Origin: a virus
Direction: 5' to 3' (one strand)
Virus record (IMG/VR): IMGVR_UViG_3300044470_000095
Location: 1 to 64,000 of that record
Length of the DNA stretch: 64,000 nucleotides
The notes under the pieces are model-generated. The model made no database searches. It was not told where the DNA came from and saw only the letters and a list, made by a program, of their open reading frames with translations. Within the stretch, counting starts at the first letter, position 1. The number at the start of each line of letters is the position of its first letter. Position numbers and translations under genes: made by a program. Shown one piece after another: positions 29,421 to 48,756 of this stretch.

Positions 29421-29432
29421 TTGGGAAAACAA

Positions 29433-31190
29433 ATGACAGATGCGCTTATTCCAAAAGACGCCGCTGGAATCGCGTTAATGTCGAACGGCAAGGTGCTGTT
29501 GCTGAAGCGTGGCGACGGCGGCGATTACCCCGGTCATTGGTGCTTCCCAGGTGGCCATTCTGAAATAGGCGAGAGCGCAGAGCAAACGGCCCTACGCGAG
29601 ACTTTGGAAGAGTCGGGCTATGCTGTTATAGGCAGCTTGAAACAAATCGCTTACACGGCAAATGGCGATATCAATTTCACGACATTCGGCAAGAACGTGC
29701 AGGAATTTGAGCCGACGCTTTCGGATGAACATGCCGAGGCCGGATGGTTTGAATCCGGCAAATACCCGGAACCATTGCACCCCGGATGCAAGCTGATTCT
29801 CGACGGCCCGGCGCTTGACGCAATCGATATCCGCAAGATGAACGAGCTGGACATCGCTCGCGCAATGTCTGCGGGGTACGTTTCATCGCCGCAACGCTAT
29901 ATGAATGTGTGGCTGTTCGCAATCCGCATTACCGGAACCGGCGTAGCGTATCGCAAGAGCCTGGAAGAGTTCGTTTTTCGCAATCCAGAGATGTATCTCA
30001 ACGATGATTTTCTGGCGCGATGCAACGGCCTGCAAGTGATTGCCGAGCATCCAGAAAAAGCCACGCTCAACAACGCGGAATTTCAAGATAGAACAATCGG
30101 CTCGATCTTCTTGCCCTATATCCAAGGCAATGAGGTTTGGGGCATAGCAAAAATTTATGACGCCAAAGCGGCGGATGTCATGGCGAAATTCCAGCTATCG
30201 ACATCGCCCACTGTCGTATTCAGCAATCCAGTAGCAAACAGCACTATCACGCTGGATGATGGTGCAGCCCTTTTAATCGAGGGCAAACCAAGTCTTCTCG
30301 ACCACGTAGCAATTTGTATTCGCGGTGTTTGGGATAAAGGCGGTCCGCCATCCGGCGTGTCAACTAATCAACTCGAAGGAAATGAAATGACAGAAGCAGA
30401 ACTGAAAGCCAAAGCGGACGCCGAGGCGCAGGAAAAGGAAGCCGAAGCGAAAGCCAAGGCCAAGGCAGACAGCGAAGCCGCTGCCAAGGCCGATGCAGAA
30501 ACTGCGCGTTGGGGTAAATTCATGGATACCCTTGACAAGATCAATAAGCGCATGGATTCGCTTGAATCGAATCTGCCAGCGCCCACGATGACTGCTGCCG
30601 ACAAGGCCAAGAAGGACGCAGAGGAAGAAGCCAAGAAAAAGGCTGACGCCGACATCGAAGAAAAAAAGAAAGTCGCCGCTGACAAAGCGAAAAAGGACGC
30701 GGAAGAAGACGCCAAGGCAAAAGCCGACGCGGAAGAAACCCGCAAGCGCATCGCCGATCTGGAAGCAAATTTGCCGAAGCGCGTTTCGGATGACGACTAT
30801 GCGCAGATGGCCGATTGCCAAATGAAAGCCGATAGCGTCTATTCGGCGTTCGGAGATTCAGCACCATCTCCGATTCGGAGTGAAAACTTGATGTCGTACA
30901 AAAAGCGCTTGCTGCACGGCTTGAAATCGAATAGCCCAGCATGGAAAGCGGTCGACATTTACAAGCTCGATGATTCCGTTGTTGGCATCGCCGAAGCGCA
31001 AATTTACGCCGACTCGATCCAAGTCGCAAATCATCCTATCGATATCGCCGCAGGCACTTTGCGCAAGATCGAAAAGAAAGACGAAAACGGTCAATTGATC
31101 CGCACTTTCGTCGGTGACCCGGAAGCGTGGATGGACGCATTCAAATCTCCCAACATGAAGCAAGTCGGCATCTCGAAAGGTAATCAATAA
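29433..31190 (+). CDS. NUDIX domain fused to DUF2213-like prohead/scaffold protein
   Basis: About 585 residues from ATG 29433. Residues 1-125 are a NUDIX hydrolase with box GHSEIGESAEQTALRETLEE SG matching GX5EX7REUXEEXGU. Residues about 135-330 (RYMNVWLFAIRITGTGVAYR, ARCNGLQVIAEHPEK, STSPTVVFSN, DHVAICIRGVWDKGG) resemble DUF2213 prohead proteins. An Ala/Lys/Glu coiled coil (about 330-450) looks like a scaffold, and a folded tail follows. It precedes the capsid genes, where protease-scaffold proteins lie. The NUDIX box looks catalytic. Substrate unknown. Confidence 0.8.
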   Translation: MTDALIPKDAAGIALMSNGKVLLLKRGDGGDYPGHWCFPGGHSEIGESAEQTALRETLEESGYAVIGSLKQIAYTANGDINFTTFGKNVQEFEPTLSDEHAEAGWFESGKYPEPLHPGCKLILDGPALDAIDIRKMNELDIARAMSAGYVSSPQRYMNVWLFAIRITGTGVAYRKSLEEFVFRNPEMYLNDDFLARCNGLQVIAEHPEKATLNNAEFQDRTIGSIFLPYIQGNEVWGIAKIYDAKAADVMAKFQLSTSPTVVFSNPVANSTITLDDGAALLIEGKPSLLDHVAICIRGVWDKGGPPSGVSTNQLEGNEMTEAELKAKADAEAQEKEAEAKAKAKADSEAAAKADAETARWGKFMDTLDKINKRMDSLESNLPAPTMTAADKAKKDAEEEAKKKADADIEEKKKVAADKAKKDAEEDAKAKADAEETRKRIADLEANLPKRVSDDDYAQMADCQMKADSVYSAFGDSAPSPIRSENLMSYKKRLLHGLKSNSPAWKAVDIYKLDDSVVGIAEAQIYADSIQVANHPIDIAAGTLRKIEKKDENGQLIRTFVGDPEAWMDAFKSPNMKQVGISKGNQ

Positions 31191-36304: not shown

Positions 36305-37687
36305 ATGGCAATCGTAAAGGTCAATGTTCGGATTCAGGTAGGCGCTACTCCGATCACATTCCAAGAGCAGGGCGCGCTTGTTTCGACCGGCGGCACTACG
36401 CTTGCGCCAAACGCTTCATCGCTGTTGACTCAGATGTCCGATTTGACTCCGTTGCTTGCTGGCGGGATTGCAATCACATCGGCAACCGAGGCAACCACTA
36501 CCGTAACGATCACGACCGCGACCGCGCACGGATTCACGACAGGCGATTCGATCACCGTCGCCGGGTTCACCACTCCCGGGTATAACGGGACGTGGATAAT
36601 CACCGTCACAGCCCCGACCACGTTCACCTATACCACGGCAAGCGGGCTGACTACGCCGGCAGTCGGTACGGGTGTCGCAACGGACGCCGACGTAGCGGAA
36701 CTGGTGGCAATGGCCACCACATACTTCGCGCAAGGAAACGGCACAGCGGTTTATGTGCTGGAAATGGGGCACGGGACGGTAGTTGCGGATATCGCGGCGT
36801 TTTCTGCGTACCTGATTGCGAATCCCGCCGCATCGTTTTATACGGCGGCAGCGGGAACCGTTTTCTACCGATACCTTATCCCGCGTGAATGGACATCGCA
36901 AGCCACCTTTATTTCGCTGGTCGCAAGCTACACGTCCAACACGGCGCTGCAATATTTTCACGTCACAGCCACACTCGCCACCTATTCCAGCTATACGGCA
37001 ATCAATGGCAAGGGCGTGTTGATGAACATCGAAGCGCCGACGATTCCATCAACCGAATTCACTTCGGCGGTAGCGTTCGCGGTGCAATTGGGGTACGCGC
37101 CGAGTTCGACGAATCAAGTGACTCAACTGTGCTACAACTACGCATTCGGCGTGACACCGTATCCGATCACATCGGTTCAAGTGGCATTGTTCAAAGCCGC
37201 AAACGTGAATTACATCACGACCGGGGCCGAAGGCGGTATCGGTAATCTCATGCTGGTCAACGGCACAAACGCCGACGGCAATCCGGGGAATTATTGGTAC
37301 GCGATCGACTATGTGCAATTGCAGGAAAACCAGTCAATTTCCAATGCCATTATTAATGGCAGCAATGGCCCTCCGTTGGATTACGATCAGTCTGGCATTA
37401 ACTATTTGCAGTCCGTCGCAGCCGATACCGCAGCGACCGCCGTAGCCGTTAATCTGGCGCTTGGCCCTGTATTCACGTACAAGATGACCGACGCGGACTT
37501 CACGTCGTTCTTGAATGGTGGTACGGCTCCTATCGGCGTGCTTATCAATGCGGTTCCCTTCGCATCGTGGATTGCGTTGAACCCATCGACTTATGTAATC
37601 GGCCAATACGGCGGTATCAGCATGAGCTTTACGCCTCAGCGCGGATTCAACAATATCGTCTTTAACGTCGATGTGGTTCAACCCTAA
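36305..37687 (+). CDS. Tail sheath-like protein (DUF3383) with E1-FCCH-like insert
   Basis: 460 residues. EQGALVSTGGTTLAPNASSL, YRYLIPREWTSQATFISLVA and MNIEAPTIPSTEFTSAVAFA match DUF3383 proteins that form the contractile sheath in a group of myoviruses. The late part (NYWYAIDYVQLQENQSISNA) is typical as well. Residues about 55-127 are an inserted domain (ATAHGFTTGDSITVAGFTTP GYNGTWIITV). Supports a contractile tail. Confidence 0.82.
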   Translation: MAIVKVNVRIQVGATPITFQEQGALVSTGGTTLAPNASSLLTQMSDLTPLLAGGIAITSATEATTTVTITTATAHGFTTGDSITVAGFTTPGYNGTWIITVTAPTTFTYTTASGLTTPAVGTGVATDADVAELVAMATTYFAQGNGTAVYVLEMGHGTVVADIAAFSAYLIANPAASFYTAAAGTVFYRYLIPREWTSQATFISLVASYTSNTALQYFHVTATLATYSSYTAINGKGVLMNIEAPTIPSTEFTSAVAFAVQLGYAPSSTNQVTQLCYNYAFGVTPYPITSVQVALFKAANVNYITTGAEGGIGNLMLVNGTNADGNPGNYWYAIDYVQLQENQSISNAIINGSNGPPLDYDQSGINYLQSVAADTAATAVAVNLALGPVFTYKMTDADFTSFLNGGTAPIGVLINAVPFASWIALNPSTYVIGQYGGISMSFTPQRGFNNIVFNVDVVQP

Positions 37688-37700
37688 TTGAAAGAAGAGC

Positions 37701-38141
37701 ATGGCAACTAATCCATTGATCGCTCAAGGCCAACTTAATCGAGTCGCAGCGAGTCTCAGTTTCGCCAAAAATCCAACGCTGAATATCACGGCACCCTATT
37801 TGGGGAAAGAGGGTATTTCTACCTCGTTTGAAGGTGAGCAAACGCTAGTCATTCCAACGAATACTGGGACTGTCATGTCGCCGGAACCATACCAGATGAT
37901 TACGGTAACGGCTCATATCTTGCGCAGCCAGCCGCTTTCGGCGACGTACATGGCGTTTATCCAGCAATCGACTTTGTGCGGGCCATTCACCATTACATCG
38001 GATAGCGGAGCATTCCCGCAGATACAGGTCTACAACGGCGCGATCAAAACGACTGCTGCGATGTTGATGAATGGCACTCAAGCAGATTTCACGCTCGAGC
38101 TGACCGGCTACTGGCTCATCAACAATTCGCTCTGGCAGTAA
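37701..38141 (+). CDS. Tail tube-like protein
   Basis: 146 residues. QGQLNRVAASLSFAKNPTLN, PEPYQMITVTAHILRSQPLS and a C-terminal DFTLELTGYWLINNSLW fit small tail-tube proteins. It lies directly after the sheath-like gene and before the tail chaperone, the standard order. Confidence 0.75.
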   Translation: MATNPLIAQGQLNRVAASLSFAKNPTLNITAPYLGKEGISTSFEGEQTLVIPTNTGTVMSPEPYQMITVTAHILRSQPLSATYMAFIQQSTLCGPFTITSDSGAFPQIQVYNGAIKTTAAMLMNGTQADFTLELTGYWLINNSLWQ

Positions 38142-38168: not shown

Positions 38169-38777
38169 ATGCGCATCAACCGTGATTTAAACCTCGTCAT
38201 CCCCCTAAAGCTGGAAGAGGGGGAATTCTTTATTCATTCGACGCCGATTAGTTCAGAAACTTTCCGGCAATATTTTCTTGTGCTTTCCAAAGTGCTGAAC
38301 CAGATTCACTCCGAAGGATTGCACGTTGTCGGGCCGCGCATCGCGTCCATGCTTTTGCAAAGGATCGCGGAAGAGGGGGACCCGGAAAACATTCCATCTG
38401 GATGGCTTGGAAATGCCGACTCGTGGTCTGGCAGGTTTGGCGTGAAAAATGGCCTATTCAATGAAATACGTCGGCTATCGAATGTCATCATGCCAACCGA
38501 AAACGGCTGGCAATCCGTTCCGCTCTACGATGTCATCAAGCAAGAACTTATCCCGCAACAAAAGATCGAGGAGGTTGAAAGCCTAATCGTTTTTTTTACA
38601 TGCGTCTGGCACATTCACAGCCGCGAGGAAATGGAGAAATTCCTAGTGCTATCGGAGAAAGCGTGGAATACGCGCACATCCTCATTGACCTGTACGGAAT
38701 ATCTCGACTCTTTACCGACATCGACCGCGACAGAGACTTTTGTTCCAACCGTGAAACAGTCGTCAATTCCGGGTTAA
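38169..38777 (+). CDS. Tail assembly chaperone, frame-0 product
   Basis: 202 residues: MRINRDLNLVIPLKLEEGEF, STPISSETFRQYFLVLSKVL and SGWLGNADSWSGRFGVKNGL. In gene order (after tube, before tape measure) this is the G-type chaperone. Codon 141 onward contains a run of eight T residues at 38590-38597 where the ribosome may shift by -1 into the 38600 frame. The 60 residues after that point (TCVWHIHSREEMEKFLVLSE) exist only in the unshifted product. Confidence 0.75.
   Translation: MRINRDLNLVIPLKLEEGEFFIHSTPISSETFRQYFLVLSKVLNQIHSEGLHVVGPRIASMLLQRIAEEGDPENIPSGWLGNADSWSGRFGVKNGLFNEIRRLSNVIMPTENGWQSVPLYDVIKQELIPQQKIEEVESLIVFFTCVWHIHSREEMEKFLVLSEKAWNTRTSSLTCTEYLDSLPTSTATETFVPTVKQSSIPG
38591..38597 (+). 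promoter_or_regulatory. Programmed -1 frameshift site T TTT TTT
   Basis: With frame-0 codons beginning at 38589 (GTT TTT TTT ACA), the heptamer T TTT TTT is exactly in the X XXY YYZ phase needed for a -1 slip. The -1 frame then runs without a stop to 38887, where its TAA overlaps the start of the tape measure gene. Confidence 0.7.
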
Positions 38778-38887
38778 GCTGGATTGCAAATGAAGGGTTT
38801 GGGGAATTTTTCGATAGTATTGATCGAGATTTTCCCTACTCCAATGCGCATGAATTTCGGCAGCGATATTTGAAAGGAGGTATCTAA
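38600..38887 (+). CDS. Tail chaperone extension (GT part), -1 frame
   Basis: 96 codons from TAC at 38597 (YMRLAHSQPRGNGEIPSAIG ... FTDIDRDRDF ... HEFRQRYLKGGI) to TAA at 38885-38887. Most likely translated as the C-terminal part of a G-GT fusion of about 239 residues after slippage at 38591-38597. Direct initiation at ATG 38600 is possible but has no Shine-Dalgarno sequence. The stop overlaps the tape-measure ATG. Confidence 0.7.
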   Translation: MRLAHSQPRGNGEIPSAIGESVEYAHILIDLYGISRLFTDIDRDRDFCSNRETVVNSGLSWIANEGFGEFFDSIDRDFPYSNAHEFRQRYLKGGI

Positions 38888-40929
38888 TGTCTGACAATAA
38901 AACAATTCTAACTATCGATACCGTTTTCGATTCGTTCAAGGAATTTGAAACGCTCTTTTCCAAGTACAAAAACGATCTAAAGGAATTGCCCGGCGGGTGG
39001 GAGAAGGTCGATAAGGAAATTGGAAAAATCCACAATCCGTTTGAGGGAATCCAAAAGACGGCCAAGGCGATGCAAGCGTCGTTCAATGCGCTAAAATCCA
39101 TCGCAAAAGAAACTGGCGCACAGATCAAGGCATCGGCGACCAATCAGGATAAATTCCGTGTTGCGACCATCGGCGCGGCTAAGTCGTTCGGCGTCATCGC
39201 AAAGAGCGCCGTCAATACGGGCAAATCAATCGCAGGCATCACGAAAAGCATTGCCGGGTGGGTTGGTATAGCCGCAGGCATTGGCGGCGCGCTGGTGGGC
39301 GGTACGCTGTTTGGATTCGACAAACTTGCGCAGTCGCAGGGCGGGCAGAGAAAATCCGCGCAGGGTCTCGGCATGTCTACCGGGGAATTGTCGGCGACGA
39401 AAATTACGTATGACAAGGTTTTAGACGATTCGGAAAGTGTTTTAGCAAAAATCAACGAGGCTAAAAACGATTTTTCAAAGAGAGGCCAGTTTTACGCCAA
39501 CGGGATATCAAGCAAGGATTTTGAAGGAAGTAACGCGGAAATCCTGAATAAATTGGTTTTAAAGGCCAAAGATACGACTGATAAAGGCGGGAAAAATTAT
39601 CAGCAATATGCGCAAGCAAAAGGGCTGACCGATCTGCTAGGCACGTCGAACGTCACGCGCATTCACGAACAGCAGCGCGAAGAATTAAATTTGCTTGGTG
39701 CTACCAATGCAAAGCGCATCAAGCAATTGTCGCAAGACGAGCAATCACTGCGCAAGTTCCAAGATTTCACGGCATCAATTCAAACCGCCGGGCAGCATAT
39801 CGAAAATGTATTGGGAGACCATCTCGTTAGATTGGCTGGCCCACTCGGGAATCTATCCGATGCATTCTCAAATGCTGTGGCGAAATTGCTAGACACAGGT
39901 AAAATCGACGAATGGATTAATGCGCTATCGGATGACATCAAGCAATTTGTCGATTGGATAAGTTCCGATGAGGGTAAAAAAGGCATACAAGGATTCTTTG
40001 ATGGGGCCGCCGAAGCCGCAGAAGCCGCCGCAACATTTGTGAAATCTTTATCGTGGGTTGCTGGTGTTTTTAAGTGGGTAGGAACAGCGATTGGCGAGTC
40101 TATTGGGTTTGTTGTTGTTACATTTGAAAAAGTATGCGATTTCTTTGCAAAGTTCATTCCCGGAATTAACTCGAGCAAACCCAGCGCACCCGCTCCAACT
40201 CAACCTACTGCAAATGGATCGCCGTATCCAAAAATGAGTAGTAAAAGCGCATTAGCTGCGGAAGCTGCAAAACAAGCAGTCGAGGCAAATAGGAATGCTG
40301 ACTATACAAATCAAGGAAAAAGCATTCCCGTTAAACAAAACGAAATTGCAAAATTAGCCGCTGCAACGCAGGCTAAATATGGCATCCCTGCGGAAGTAAC
40401 GCAAGCCCAATATAATATTGAAAGCGGTGGCGGGAAGCATATGCCATCTGGCAGTAACAATCCTTTTGGGATTAAAGCCACAAAAGACGACATCAAGTCA
40501 GGTAAATTTGTCGAGGCAATGACAACCGAGCATTTGAATGGGATAGATGTTCGTATTCTGCAAAAGTTCAAGAAGTTCGATTCTCTGGCGGATGCATTCG
40601 ATGCGCATGCGAAGCTGCTGGCAACAAGGCCGCAATACGCGAACGCTAGAAAACATGCGGACGACCCGAAGGCTTTCGCTGACGCCTTGACCGGCGTATA
40701 TGCAACCGATCCTCATTATGGAGAAAAGTTGAAAGCTGAAATTAGCAAGCAAGCCCCAAGAGTGAGTCAAAATACGGCAAATGCTTCACAATCATCGCAA
40801 CAACAAGCCCAATCAAAATCACCGCAGGCAGGGCGCACATATCAGCAGCCGGTTAATGTCACGATCAACAAATCAGCCGGCGCAGATGTCAATACAACTG
40901 TCAATGCAATGTCTCCGTCGAGCGTATGA
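38887..40929 (+). CDS. Tape measure protein with C-terminal glucosaminidase-like domain
   Basis: 680 residues. A helical N-terminal region and a hydrophobic patch (KSIAGWVGIAAGIGGALVGG, about 115-140) are usual for tape measures. A low-complexity linker at about 430-475 precedes a peptidoglycan-hydrolase domain (AKYGIPAEVTQAQYNIESGG, SNNPFGIKA, FDSLADAFDAHAKLL, YATDPHYGEKLKAEI) with the ES glutamate of flagellar FlgJ-type enzymes. It would set tail length and open the cell wall at DNA entry. Rather short for a tape measure. GGAGG precedes the start. Confidence 0.85.
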   Translation: MSDNKTILTIDTVFDSFKEFETLFSKYKNDLKELPGGWEKVDKEIGKIHNPFEGIQKTAKAMQASFNALKSIAKETGAQIKASATNQDKFRVATIGAAKSFGVIAKSAVNTGKSIAGITKSIAGWVGIAAGIGGALVGGTLFGFDKLAQSQGGQRKSAQGLGMSTGELSATKITYDKVLDDSESVLAKINEAKNDFSKRGQFYANGISSKDFEGSNAEILNKLVLKAKDTTDKGGKNYQQYAQAKGLTDLLGTSNVTRIHEQQREELNLLGATNAKRIKQLSQDEQSLRKFQDFTASIQTAGQHIENVLGDHLVRLAGPLGNLSDAFSNAVAKLLDTGKIDEWINALSDDIKQFVDWISSDEGKKGIQGFFDGAAEAAEAAATFVKSLSWVAGVFKWVGTAIGESIGFVVVTFEKVCDFFAKFIPGINSSKPSAPAPTQPTANGSPYPKMSSKSALAAEAAKQAVEANRNADYTNQGKSIPVKQNEIAKLAAATQAKYGIPAEVTQAQYNIESGGGKHMPSGSNNPFGIKATKDDIKSGKFVEAMTTEHLNGIDVRILQKFKKFDSLADAFDAHAKLLATRPQYANARKHADDPKAFADALTGVYATDPHYGEKLKAEISKQAPRVSQNTANASQSSQQQAQSKSPQAGRTYQQPVNVTINKSAGADVNTTVNAMSPSSV

Positions 40930-46979: not shown

Positions 46980-47333
46980 ATGGCGTTAAGAACATGGGGC
47001 AGAGTATCCGATGAGTACGGGAATTTAACATGGCAGGAAGTGACAACAGATGCCAATGGATACAATGACGCAGTGTGGATTACTGCGCTTATCCAAGCGT
47101 TGAAACTTAATATCAACGAATCGCCATTCAATTCAAATTACGGAATCAATGCGCGCCAATCAGTGGTAACGCAGATTTTCCCTGATTTTTACGTCGCACA
47201 GACTCAGCGACAATTCTCGCAATACTTCGCAAGCCTGTTGATTTCAAAAGTACAGGGAACAATTGACCCTACTTATAACGTCAGCATCATCACGCATTCC
47301 GGCGCAAAAATAATGACACAGATTGCAACCTGA
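46980..47333 (+). CDS. Baseplate wedge protein (gp25/gpW-like)
   Basis: 117 residues. ALIQALKLNINESPFNSNYG INARQSVVTQIFPDFY and QYFASLLISKV form a compact fold. The size and position between spike and gpJ correspond to gpW/gp25. No EPR core motif is visible, so the assignment rests on order. Confidence 0.6.
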   Translation: MALRTWGRVSDEYGNLTWQEVTTDANGYNDAVWITALIQALKLNINESPFNSNYGINARQSVVTQIFPDFYVAQTQRQFSQYFASLLISKVQGTIDPTYNVSIITHSGAKIMTQIAT

Positions 47334-47334
47334 C

Positions 47335-48756
47335 ATGAGCATTTCAAATCTAGTTACCGTCACAAGTGCGGGCGCACAGCCACAAACTGCATCCGCGCTA
47401 AACGCTCAATTAATCGCGCTTGTTGCCGCTTCCAATCCTGGCTATACGGTTTTGCCTACCGGATTGATTGAGGATATCTCAAGCACGATTACGGGAGCGG
47501 TTTCGTTATGCGATCAAGCCGCTGTCGAGTTGCTTAACTCGCTTTCTGCGCAAGGGTCGAATCAGTTTTTGCTCAATCAATTGGGAGAGCAAGCTGGCAT
47601 AGCGCAGGGACAACCGACGAACACAAGTGTTTATGTCGTATTCAGCGGGCCGGCTGGCTTTGTGATACCAATCGGTTTTACTGTTTCCGATGGGACTTAC
47701 CAATATGTCGTTCAAGATGGCGGCGTAATTGGCGCATCGAATGAGACACCGCCCTTATATACAATTTCGACCACATCGGGATCATTTGCGGTCCCATCTG
47801 GCACAGTCGTTGATTTGGTTACTTCAGTGCCGAGCACAATAAGCCTAACCGTAACAAATCCATCAAACGGCACGCCAGGCGTTGCGACGGGCGAGACGCT
47901 AGGCAGCTATCAATCTCGGGTAATTCAGGCCAACCAAGCCCCGGCGCAAGGCATGCCAAGCCAATTGCGCACCACGCTCGGTGCTGTTGCTGGGGTACAG
48001 GCAAGATTGATTTCGATATTGCAAGAACCGTCTGGCGGCTGGGAAATTATTGTTGGCGGCGGCGATCCGTACCAAGTCGCCAATGCGATCATGACAGGAA
48101 TTTTCGACATTAGCACATTGGCCGGATCACAGCTTGCCGTATCTAATATCACGCAAGCGGCAAATGGCGTAGTGACAACCAATCTCGCGCATGGACTTGC
48201 AACCGGCGCAGTTTTGGAATTGATTGGCGTGATTGGTATGACCGCTATTAACGGCGTGTCGATGACAATTACTGTTTTAACGCCGACCACATTTGAAACG
48301 AACATCAACACAGGTGGATTTGGCGCGTATGTAAGTGGCGGTGCATTGACGCCGAATCCACGCAATATCATCACATCGCTGAATTATTTCCCCGATACCT
48401 ATTCGATTGTTTTCGTCAATCCCCCGCAGCAGACGGTGACGATGACGATCAACTGGCTATCCATTGCGCCGAATTTCGTTCCTGCCGCTACCGTTGCGGC
48501 GGCAGTTCAACCGTCAATAGTTGCATATGTAAATTCCGTTTATGTCGGACAGCCGATGAGTCTGTTGCAATTGAAAGACGCATTTATCAGCGCCCTCCCC
48601 ACATCGATACCCGAATCCAGTATTTCAAAGCTGATTTTCTCTGTTTATATAAATGGCGTGTTGACCGCGCCAAGCGGAGGAAATGAATTGATATATGGTG
48701 ACTTGGAAAGTTATTTTTTCGCCGTTAATTCTGGCATCACCGTTTTGAACGCATAG
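47335..48756 (+). CDS. Baseplate J-like protein with E1-FCCH-like insert
   Basis: 473 residues from ATG 47335. LIEDISSTITGAVSLCDQAA, GFVIPIGFTVSDGTYQYVVQ, TNPSNGTPGVATGETLGSYQ SRV and GVQARLISILQEPSGGWEII are hallmarks of gpJ/gp6-type wedge proteins. Residues about 268-340 contain the inserted domain (TTNLAHGLATGAVLELIGVI, INGVSMTITVLTPTTFETNI). The C-terminal part ends as in other gpJ proteins. Confidence 0.82.
   Translation: MSISNLVTVTSAGAQPQTASALNAQLIALVAASNPGYTVLPTGLIEDISSTITGAVSLCDQAAVELLNSLSAQGSNQFLLNQLGEQAGIAQGQPTNTSVYVVFSGPAGFVIPIGFTVSDGTYQYVVQDGGVIGASNETPPLYTISTTSGSFAVPSGTVVDLVTSVPSTISLTVTNPSNGTPGVATGETLGSYQSRVIQANQAPAQGMPSQLRTTLGAVAGVQARLISILQEPSGGWEIIVGGGDPYQVANAIMTGIFDISTLAGSQLAVSNITQAANGVVTTNLAHGLATGAVLELIGVIGMTAINGVSMTITVLTPTTFETNINTGGFGAYVSGGALTPNPRNIITSLNYFPDTYSIVFVNPPQQTVTMTINWLSIAPNFVPAATVAAAVQPSIVAYVNSVYVGQPMSLLQLKDAFISALPTSIPESSISKLIFSVYINGVLTAPSGGNELIYGDLESYFFAVNSGITVLNA

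Follow-up and report, generated by a model that had tools for sequence, protein, structure and literature searches.

How a phage gene lying between probable tail tube and tape measure genes could encode two different C-terminal sequences is the question raised by this locus. The window, the whole stretch of DNA analyzed, covers positions 1 to 64,000 of a virus record of 69,623 bases (IMGVR_UViG_3300044470_000095). The features that bear on the question are as follows.

36305 to 37687, plus strand: probable tail sheath protein, from gene order; no PDB sequence match
37701 to 38141, plus strand: probable tail tube protein, from gene order; phrog_6566, of unknown function in PHROGs
38169 to 38777, plus strand: frame-0 ORF of 202 aa with an ATG start, predicted to give the unshifted, gpG-like product; phrog_11810 match (E 1.3e-38, residues 1-200) and AlphaFold2 mean pLDDT 86.7
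38568 to 38574, plus strand: GAGGAGG, SD-like candidate stimulator, with 16 nt between it and the heptamer; codon-level selection in the family
38591 to 38597, plus strand: putative slippery heptamer T TTT TTT in -1 phase, inside the T8 run 38590-38597, from sequence and family conservation
38597 to 38887, plus strand: -1 frame after the predicted shift, 96 codons and TAA; T-like domain, phrog_14324
38598 to 38777, plus strand: stretch read in two frames, 59 codons and the frame-0 stop
38600 to 38602, plus strand: ATG in the -1 frame, candidate independent start, not supported (no SD-like site; ATG here in 9/99 clusters)
38876 to 38880, plus strand: ribosome-binding site (GGAGG) of the downstream gene, 6 nt upstream of ATG 38887 (duplex energy -12.2)
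38887 to 40929, plus strand: probable tape measure protein of 680 aa with a glucosaminidase-type domain; one relative is annotated 'tape measure protein'

As read from the sequence, the gene situated between the probable tube and tape measure genes very probably encodes a tail assembly chaperone and has a programmed -1 ribosomal frameshift. Codons 141-144 of frame 0 read GTT TTT TTT ACA, in which T TTT TTT forms an in-phase X XXY YYZ heptamer. The frame-0 stop (38775-38777) lies 59 codons beyond the heptamer. The -1 frame has a TAG at 38576-38578 and is then open up to the TAA at 38885-38887, which shares one base with the next ATG (38887-38889). The original prediction had placed the heptamer in exact -1 phase, followed by a -1 frame that stays open up to a TAA overlapping the tape measure start, and had frame 0 running about 60 residues further. 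These coordinates hold, the last figure being 59 codons and a stop. Runs of seven T occur 15 times in the 69.6 kb record when both strands are counted, with two overlapping matches within the T8 run, and a T run alone therefore means little; its conservation at a homologous codon pair does count.

Fourteen phage records matched the 202-aa protein by tblastn, each with at least 91% of the query covered and all below 60% identity. In the eight phage loci that were opened, T TTT TTT was in phase at the homologous Phe-Phe pair (8/8) and the -1 frame was open for 98 to 115 codons past the site. None of these eight records annotated a frameshift or a complete -1 part, and the -1 part was likewise unannotated in two E. 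coli chromosome records. Some relatives are included in the Felixviridae, as described in PMC12451628. By DNA match to one relative, 90 out of 5426 complete E. coli genomes contained related prophages.

A single-protein search of viral contigs with the N-terminal 139 aa from the window found no relative. A first wider search, with an alignment motif that included the Phe-Phe pair, returned 80 viral and 11 genome contigs. Because this motif favors the site, the search was redone with seeds ending eight codons before it. These upstream-only seeds gave 160 loci and seeds from the -1 domain only gave 80, with some contigs recurring between searches. Loci with a placed site were clustered at 70% into 99 clusters, and a set of 65 upstream-seeded clusters was used for the openness test. 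Left out were two loci cut before the gene (L318 and L319) and one at a contig end with no match to the -1 domain (L316). Both parts of the gene were held by 337 of 340 loci, the second domain stood in -1 relation to the first in 336 of these 337, and in none of the 337 were the two parts fused in one ORF. The exception, L107, was left out of the site counts. On this Kluyvera genomosp. 3 chromosome, an indel close to the site seems to have disrupted the frame relation, and the locus is probably part of a decaying prophage.

T TTT TTT was found in 301 of the 337 loci with a placeable site and in 168 of 197 with distinct sequence around it. The other heptamers at these 197 distinct sequences were G TTT TTT (13), A TAT TTT (7), T TTT TTC (4), T TAT TTT (3), C TTT TTT (1), and G TCT TTT (1). 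Among loci found with upstream-only seeds, 148 of 160 carried T TTT TTT and one had T TTT TTC followed by a long -1 frame, while the other 11 had C TTT TTT or a Tyr-Phe or Ser-Phe pair at the site, with the -1 frame still open. By cluster, T TTT TTT was present in 88 of 99 overall and in 59 of the 65 upstream-seeded. The remaining 11 of the 99 comprised two with T TTT TTC, three with G or C TTT TTT, and six with Tyr-Phe or Ser-Phe. In these six, only T TTT A is left at the slip point and the -1 domain is kept; tandem slippage on T TTT A alone would be poor, and these clusters need explaining. Our guess is that one-tRNA slippage on T TTT may occur in such members. The Tyr-Phe or Ser-Phe members that lack an X XXY YYZ heptamer are L111, L118, L119, L120, L240, L255, L258, L261, L263, L264, and L340. 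Loci with GTG before TTT TTT, giving G TTT TTT, and an intact -1 frame are L067-L069, L075-L080, L100, and L101, the last two being Serratia genomes.

Codon choice at the site is strongly biased. The Phe-Phe pair was written TTT TTT in 91 of 93 clusters, where 16.3 were expected from the codon usage of each locus. Fifty clusters use TTT for less than 30% of Phe codons; 47 of them have Phe-Phe at the site, and it was TTT TTT in 46 of the 47 (2.1 expected). As a control, the remaining Phe-Phe pairs in the long ORFs of these loci were TTT TTT in 30 of 248.

The overlap between the two frames has a median length of 58 codons across the 99 clusters (range 41 to 86). Shuffle tests that measure frame 0 up to its own stop are circular, and we therefore relied only on a fixed 50-codon test in upstream-seeded loci. 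Of 65 upstream-seeded clusters, 63 had frame 0 open for 50 codons or more beyond the site, compared to 23.6 expected when synonymous codons were recoded at random with the -1 protein fixed. The -1 frame was open over that stretch in 65 of 65, with 12.4 expected when the frame-0 protein was fixed; the 65 clusters have common ancestry and hence are not 65 independent trials. In control stretches after the frame-0 stop, the frame-0 phase was open in 55 of 96 (59.6 expected). Over 30 upstream codons the -1 phase was open in 31, with 18.3 expected, which indicates some composition effect.

Substitutions were compared in 43 disjoint pairs of close relatives, and an earlier run with 20 pairs agrees. 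Differences fell at frame-0 codon position 3 in 67% of cases upstream of the site and in 59% over the first 30 codons after it. In the rest of the overlap 46% were at position 2, the wobble position of the -1 frame, and 37% at position 3, and past the frame-0 stop 59% were at position 2. This shift in wobble from frame 0 through a mixed pattern to the -1 frame indicates that frame 0 is in control over the first 30 codons, with control divided between the two frames for about 28 codons after that. Relative to the upstream rate, the position-3 rate in the overlap's first half was 0.67 (bootstrap 0.58-0.76); in the second half, the position-2 rate was 0.61 of that in the -1-only part (bootstrap 0.52-0.72). 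Both frames are under selection across the overlap. As originally proposed, about 180 bp would encode two proteins.

Pairing with the 3′ end of 16S rRNA, calculated in 8-mer windows, peaks 12-16 nt upstream of the heptamer. The best duplex near the site was -6 or lower in 82% of clusters, compared to 12%, 12%, and 18% in three control zones. A Glu-Val-Glu protein motif could produce such SD-like pairing, and therefore codon choice was tested. Glu-135 was encoded by GAG in 73 of 93 clusters (44.9 expected, z 6.2), and a control, Glu-137, had no such bias (GAG in 28 of 67, 33.9 expected). The SD-like GAGG is selected at the codon level in this family, and it may possibly have a role in stimulating the shift. 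No downstream RNA structure signal was detected, either within the window (z 0.36 to -1.38) or across the 99 clusters; with 60-nt folding windows, mean z was -0.39 at the site and -0.20 upstream.

The same fusion protein would be made if RNA polymerase were to slip on the T8 run, yielding nine-U mRNAs on which translation would run directly into the -1 frame, and T8 is present in 62 of the 99 clusters. However, the run is only T7 in 26 of the 99, T6 in three, and T4 in six, with the -1 domain still conserved. What is kept before TTT TTT is a codon ending in T (GTT, ACT, TGT, GCT, ATT, or AGT), that is, the heptamer and not the longest run, and a codon-selected SD-like element upstream fits ribosomes. 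We consider slippage by RNA polymerase unlikely, less so for T8 members than for those with T7, T6, or T4, which it fits poorly, and the ribosome would be what slips here.

A still less likely explanation would treat the -1 ORF as an overlapping gene in its own right, translated from an independent start (ATG 38600 in the window). PHROGs has a 97-aa family of its own for this part, whose register fits a start at that ATG, but an ATG is found at that codon in only 9 of 99 clusters, and only 58 of 99 have any ATG, GTG, or TTG in the usable stretch. In 5 of 99 clusters such a start comes with an SD-like site, in the window none does, and a separate gene would leave the TTT TTT codon bias unexplained. 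Independent translation from ATG 38600, which the original prediction had named as its refutation, is not supported on these counts (9/99 with ATG, 5/99 with an SD-like site). In 93 of 99 clusters, the start of a downstream ORF lies between -30 and +60 nt relative to the -1 stop. Indel errors do occur at homopolymers such as T8, but the idea that the true gene has nine T and a single ORF is ruled out by the relatives, with 336 of 337 loci, drawn from many assemblies, interrupted in this way, no fused ORFs, and selection on both frames.

The conserved site, its phase, and the maintenance of both frames strongly support the original reading of a programmed -1 ribosomal frameshift. In this mechanism, most ribosomes would make the 202-aa frame-0 protein and a minority would pause on T TTT TTT and slip back one base, possibly helped by pairing of 16S rRNA with the GAGG 16 nt upstream. 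The product of the slip would be a fusion of residues 1-143 with the -1 domain of 96 residues. If the two products work as gpG and gpGT do in lambda, the tape measure protein would be coated by the short form, present in excess, tube subunits would be brought in by the T domain of the fusion, and the ratio of fusion to short form would be low and fixed.

The order tube, this gene, tape measure is found in the window and in eight annotated relatives, the tube and tape measure identities themselves being probable assignments. Proteins with a gpV apex motif and Baseplate_J are encoded downstream, which together with gene order suggests a contractile-tailed phage. With Foldseek against BFVD, the best match was an uncharacterized phage protein (E 3e-5), and a weak match was found to A0A8S5N4C5, annotated as a tail assembly chaperone (probability 0.90, E 0.026). 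Chaperone function is likely given the gene order and this weak fold match. No tail assembly chaperone model in Pfam or NCBIfam matched the window frame-0 protein or its 36 aligned members, indicating that the gene is not filed in those sequence families. A PDB sequence search returned nothing for the chaperone or the sheath protein. A PDB fold search returned no match with E below 0.001 for either the frame-0 or the -1 model; the sole chain above Z 5, 5ir0_B (PICI-like ORF19; Z 5.2 over 94 residues, rmsd 3.8), was too weak to be accepted as a fold relative. Matches of the probable tail tube protein to cytochrome c′ in the PDB sequence search (E 0.04 and above) were taken as chance. The phrog_11810 profile matched the window frame-0 protein (E 1.3e-38) and 36 of 36 members, and the phrog_14324 profile matched the window -1 domain (E 2.2e-5) and 33 of 35 members. 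PHROGs v4 keeps these as separate families, each of unknown function.

Domains were also noted in other proteins of the window. The probable tape measure protein (38887-40929) contains its glucosaminidase-type domain near the C-terminus, and several relatives are annotated as lytic transglycosylases, so that different wall-cutting domains occupy the same gene position. A NUDIX domain is found at the head of a long ORF (29421-31190) upstream of the probable capsid gene. An E1_FCCH-like segment is present in two structural proteins (36305-37687, sub-threshold, and 47323-48756, above the cutoff), which suggests a shared inserted domain.

AlphaFold2 models were built from 36 frame-0 sequences and 35 -1-domain sequences, including the window and those fetched. 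In the frame-0 model (mean pLDDT 86.7), a helix at residues 130-149 spans the shift site and is followed with high confidence by a helix (152-166), a strand (169-171), and a helix (175-181), then by a low-confidence tail of about 20 residues. In the -1 domain model (mean 81.8), the first 16-17 residues have low confidence and the chain is helical from residue 18. As frame 0 is predicted to be folded for about 40 residues beyond the site, the shift would replace the end of the frame-0 protein, not extend it. We tentatively propose from these models, at somewhat less than an even chance, that the shift exchanges one C-terminal module for another instead of appending a domain to a finished chaperone. 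In that case, about 20 codons would specify folded structure in each of the two frames (frame 0 to about residue 182 and the -1 domain from about 18), and the product ratio would be between two alternative chaperones from the same DNA.

The mechanism would be of the known lambda and P2 kind, a lambda G/GT-type frameshift. In lambda, the slippery sequence is G GGA AAG and lies near the end of gene G. In this gene, unlike lambda, the heptamer is T TTT TTT and frame 0 runs 59 codons further through a stretch selected in both frames. In lambda, gpG and gpGT are the short and fusion products of a -1 shift in the gene that immediately precedes the tape measure gene (PMC5009743), and a -1 shift just before the tape measure gene with a short product and a fusion would be common to both systems. 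No sequence relation to the lambda or P2 chaperones was found via Pfam. P2 E and E+E′ also use a T-rich slippery run, with E′ reaching 37 nt back into E (PMC3931495). As described there, P2 would share with this phage a myophage tail, such a run, and a -1 frame overlapping the tape measure start, but its overlap is 37 nt compared to 59 codons and a stop here. A precedent for a long overlap is the Mu-like Pseudomonas phage PaMx73, in which T TTT TTC is predicted in ORFs 35/36, 43 codons before the frame-0 stop (PMC4378225). This is a prediction, described there with no test of two-frame selection, and its likeness to this gene lies in the site and the overlap. The original prediction had called the long overlap unusual for G/GT pairs. 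This stands in relation to P2 and to annotated actinophage frameshifts in the PRFect training data, where the overlap averages 26 nt and sites lie near the frame-0 stop (PMC10885494). The 43-codon case is a precedent for it, and within its own family the long overlap is the rule.

E. coli dnaX and this gene have in common a poly-base heptamer with an upstream SD-like stimulator, a candidate one in this case. The SD-like spacing in dnaX is about 10 nt; the GAGG here is farther upstream of its heptamer. A downstream stimulator structure is also present in dnaX, and its shift truncates the product. In this gene, unlike dnaX, no downstream structure was found in the window or the clusters, and the shift would give a new domain. 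The internal SD of dnaX is mentioned in PMC5600365.

What appears to be new is that phrog_11810 and phrog_14324 would be two readings of one recoded gene, along with two-frame selection over a family-wide long overlap and a codon-selected SD-like element. A frameshift in the phrog_11810/phrog_14324 gene was not mentioned in the literature searched or, by term search, in PMC12629751. The finding gives a probable tail chaperone identity to a gene whose -1 part, in the phage records inspected, is either unannotated or overlaid in part by neighboring calls. It also provides about 100 sequence clusters in which to study overlapping-frame selection and an SD-like stimulator, and the prophage relatives in E. 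coli (90 of 5426 genomes) would make bench tests easy.
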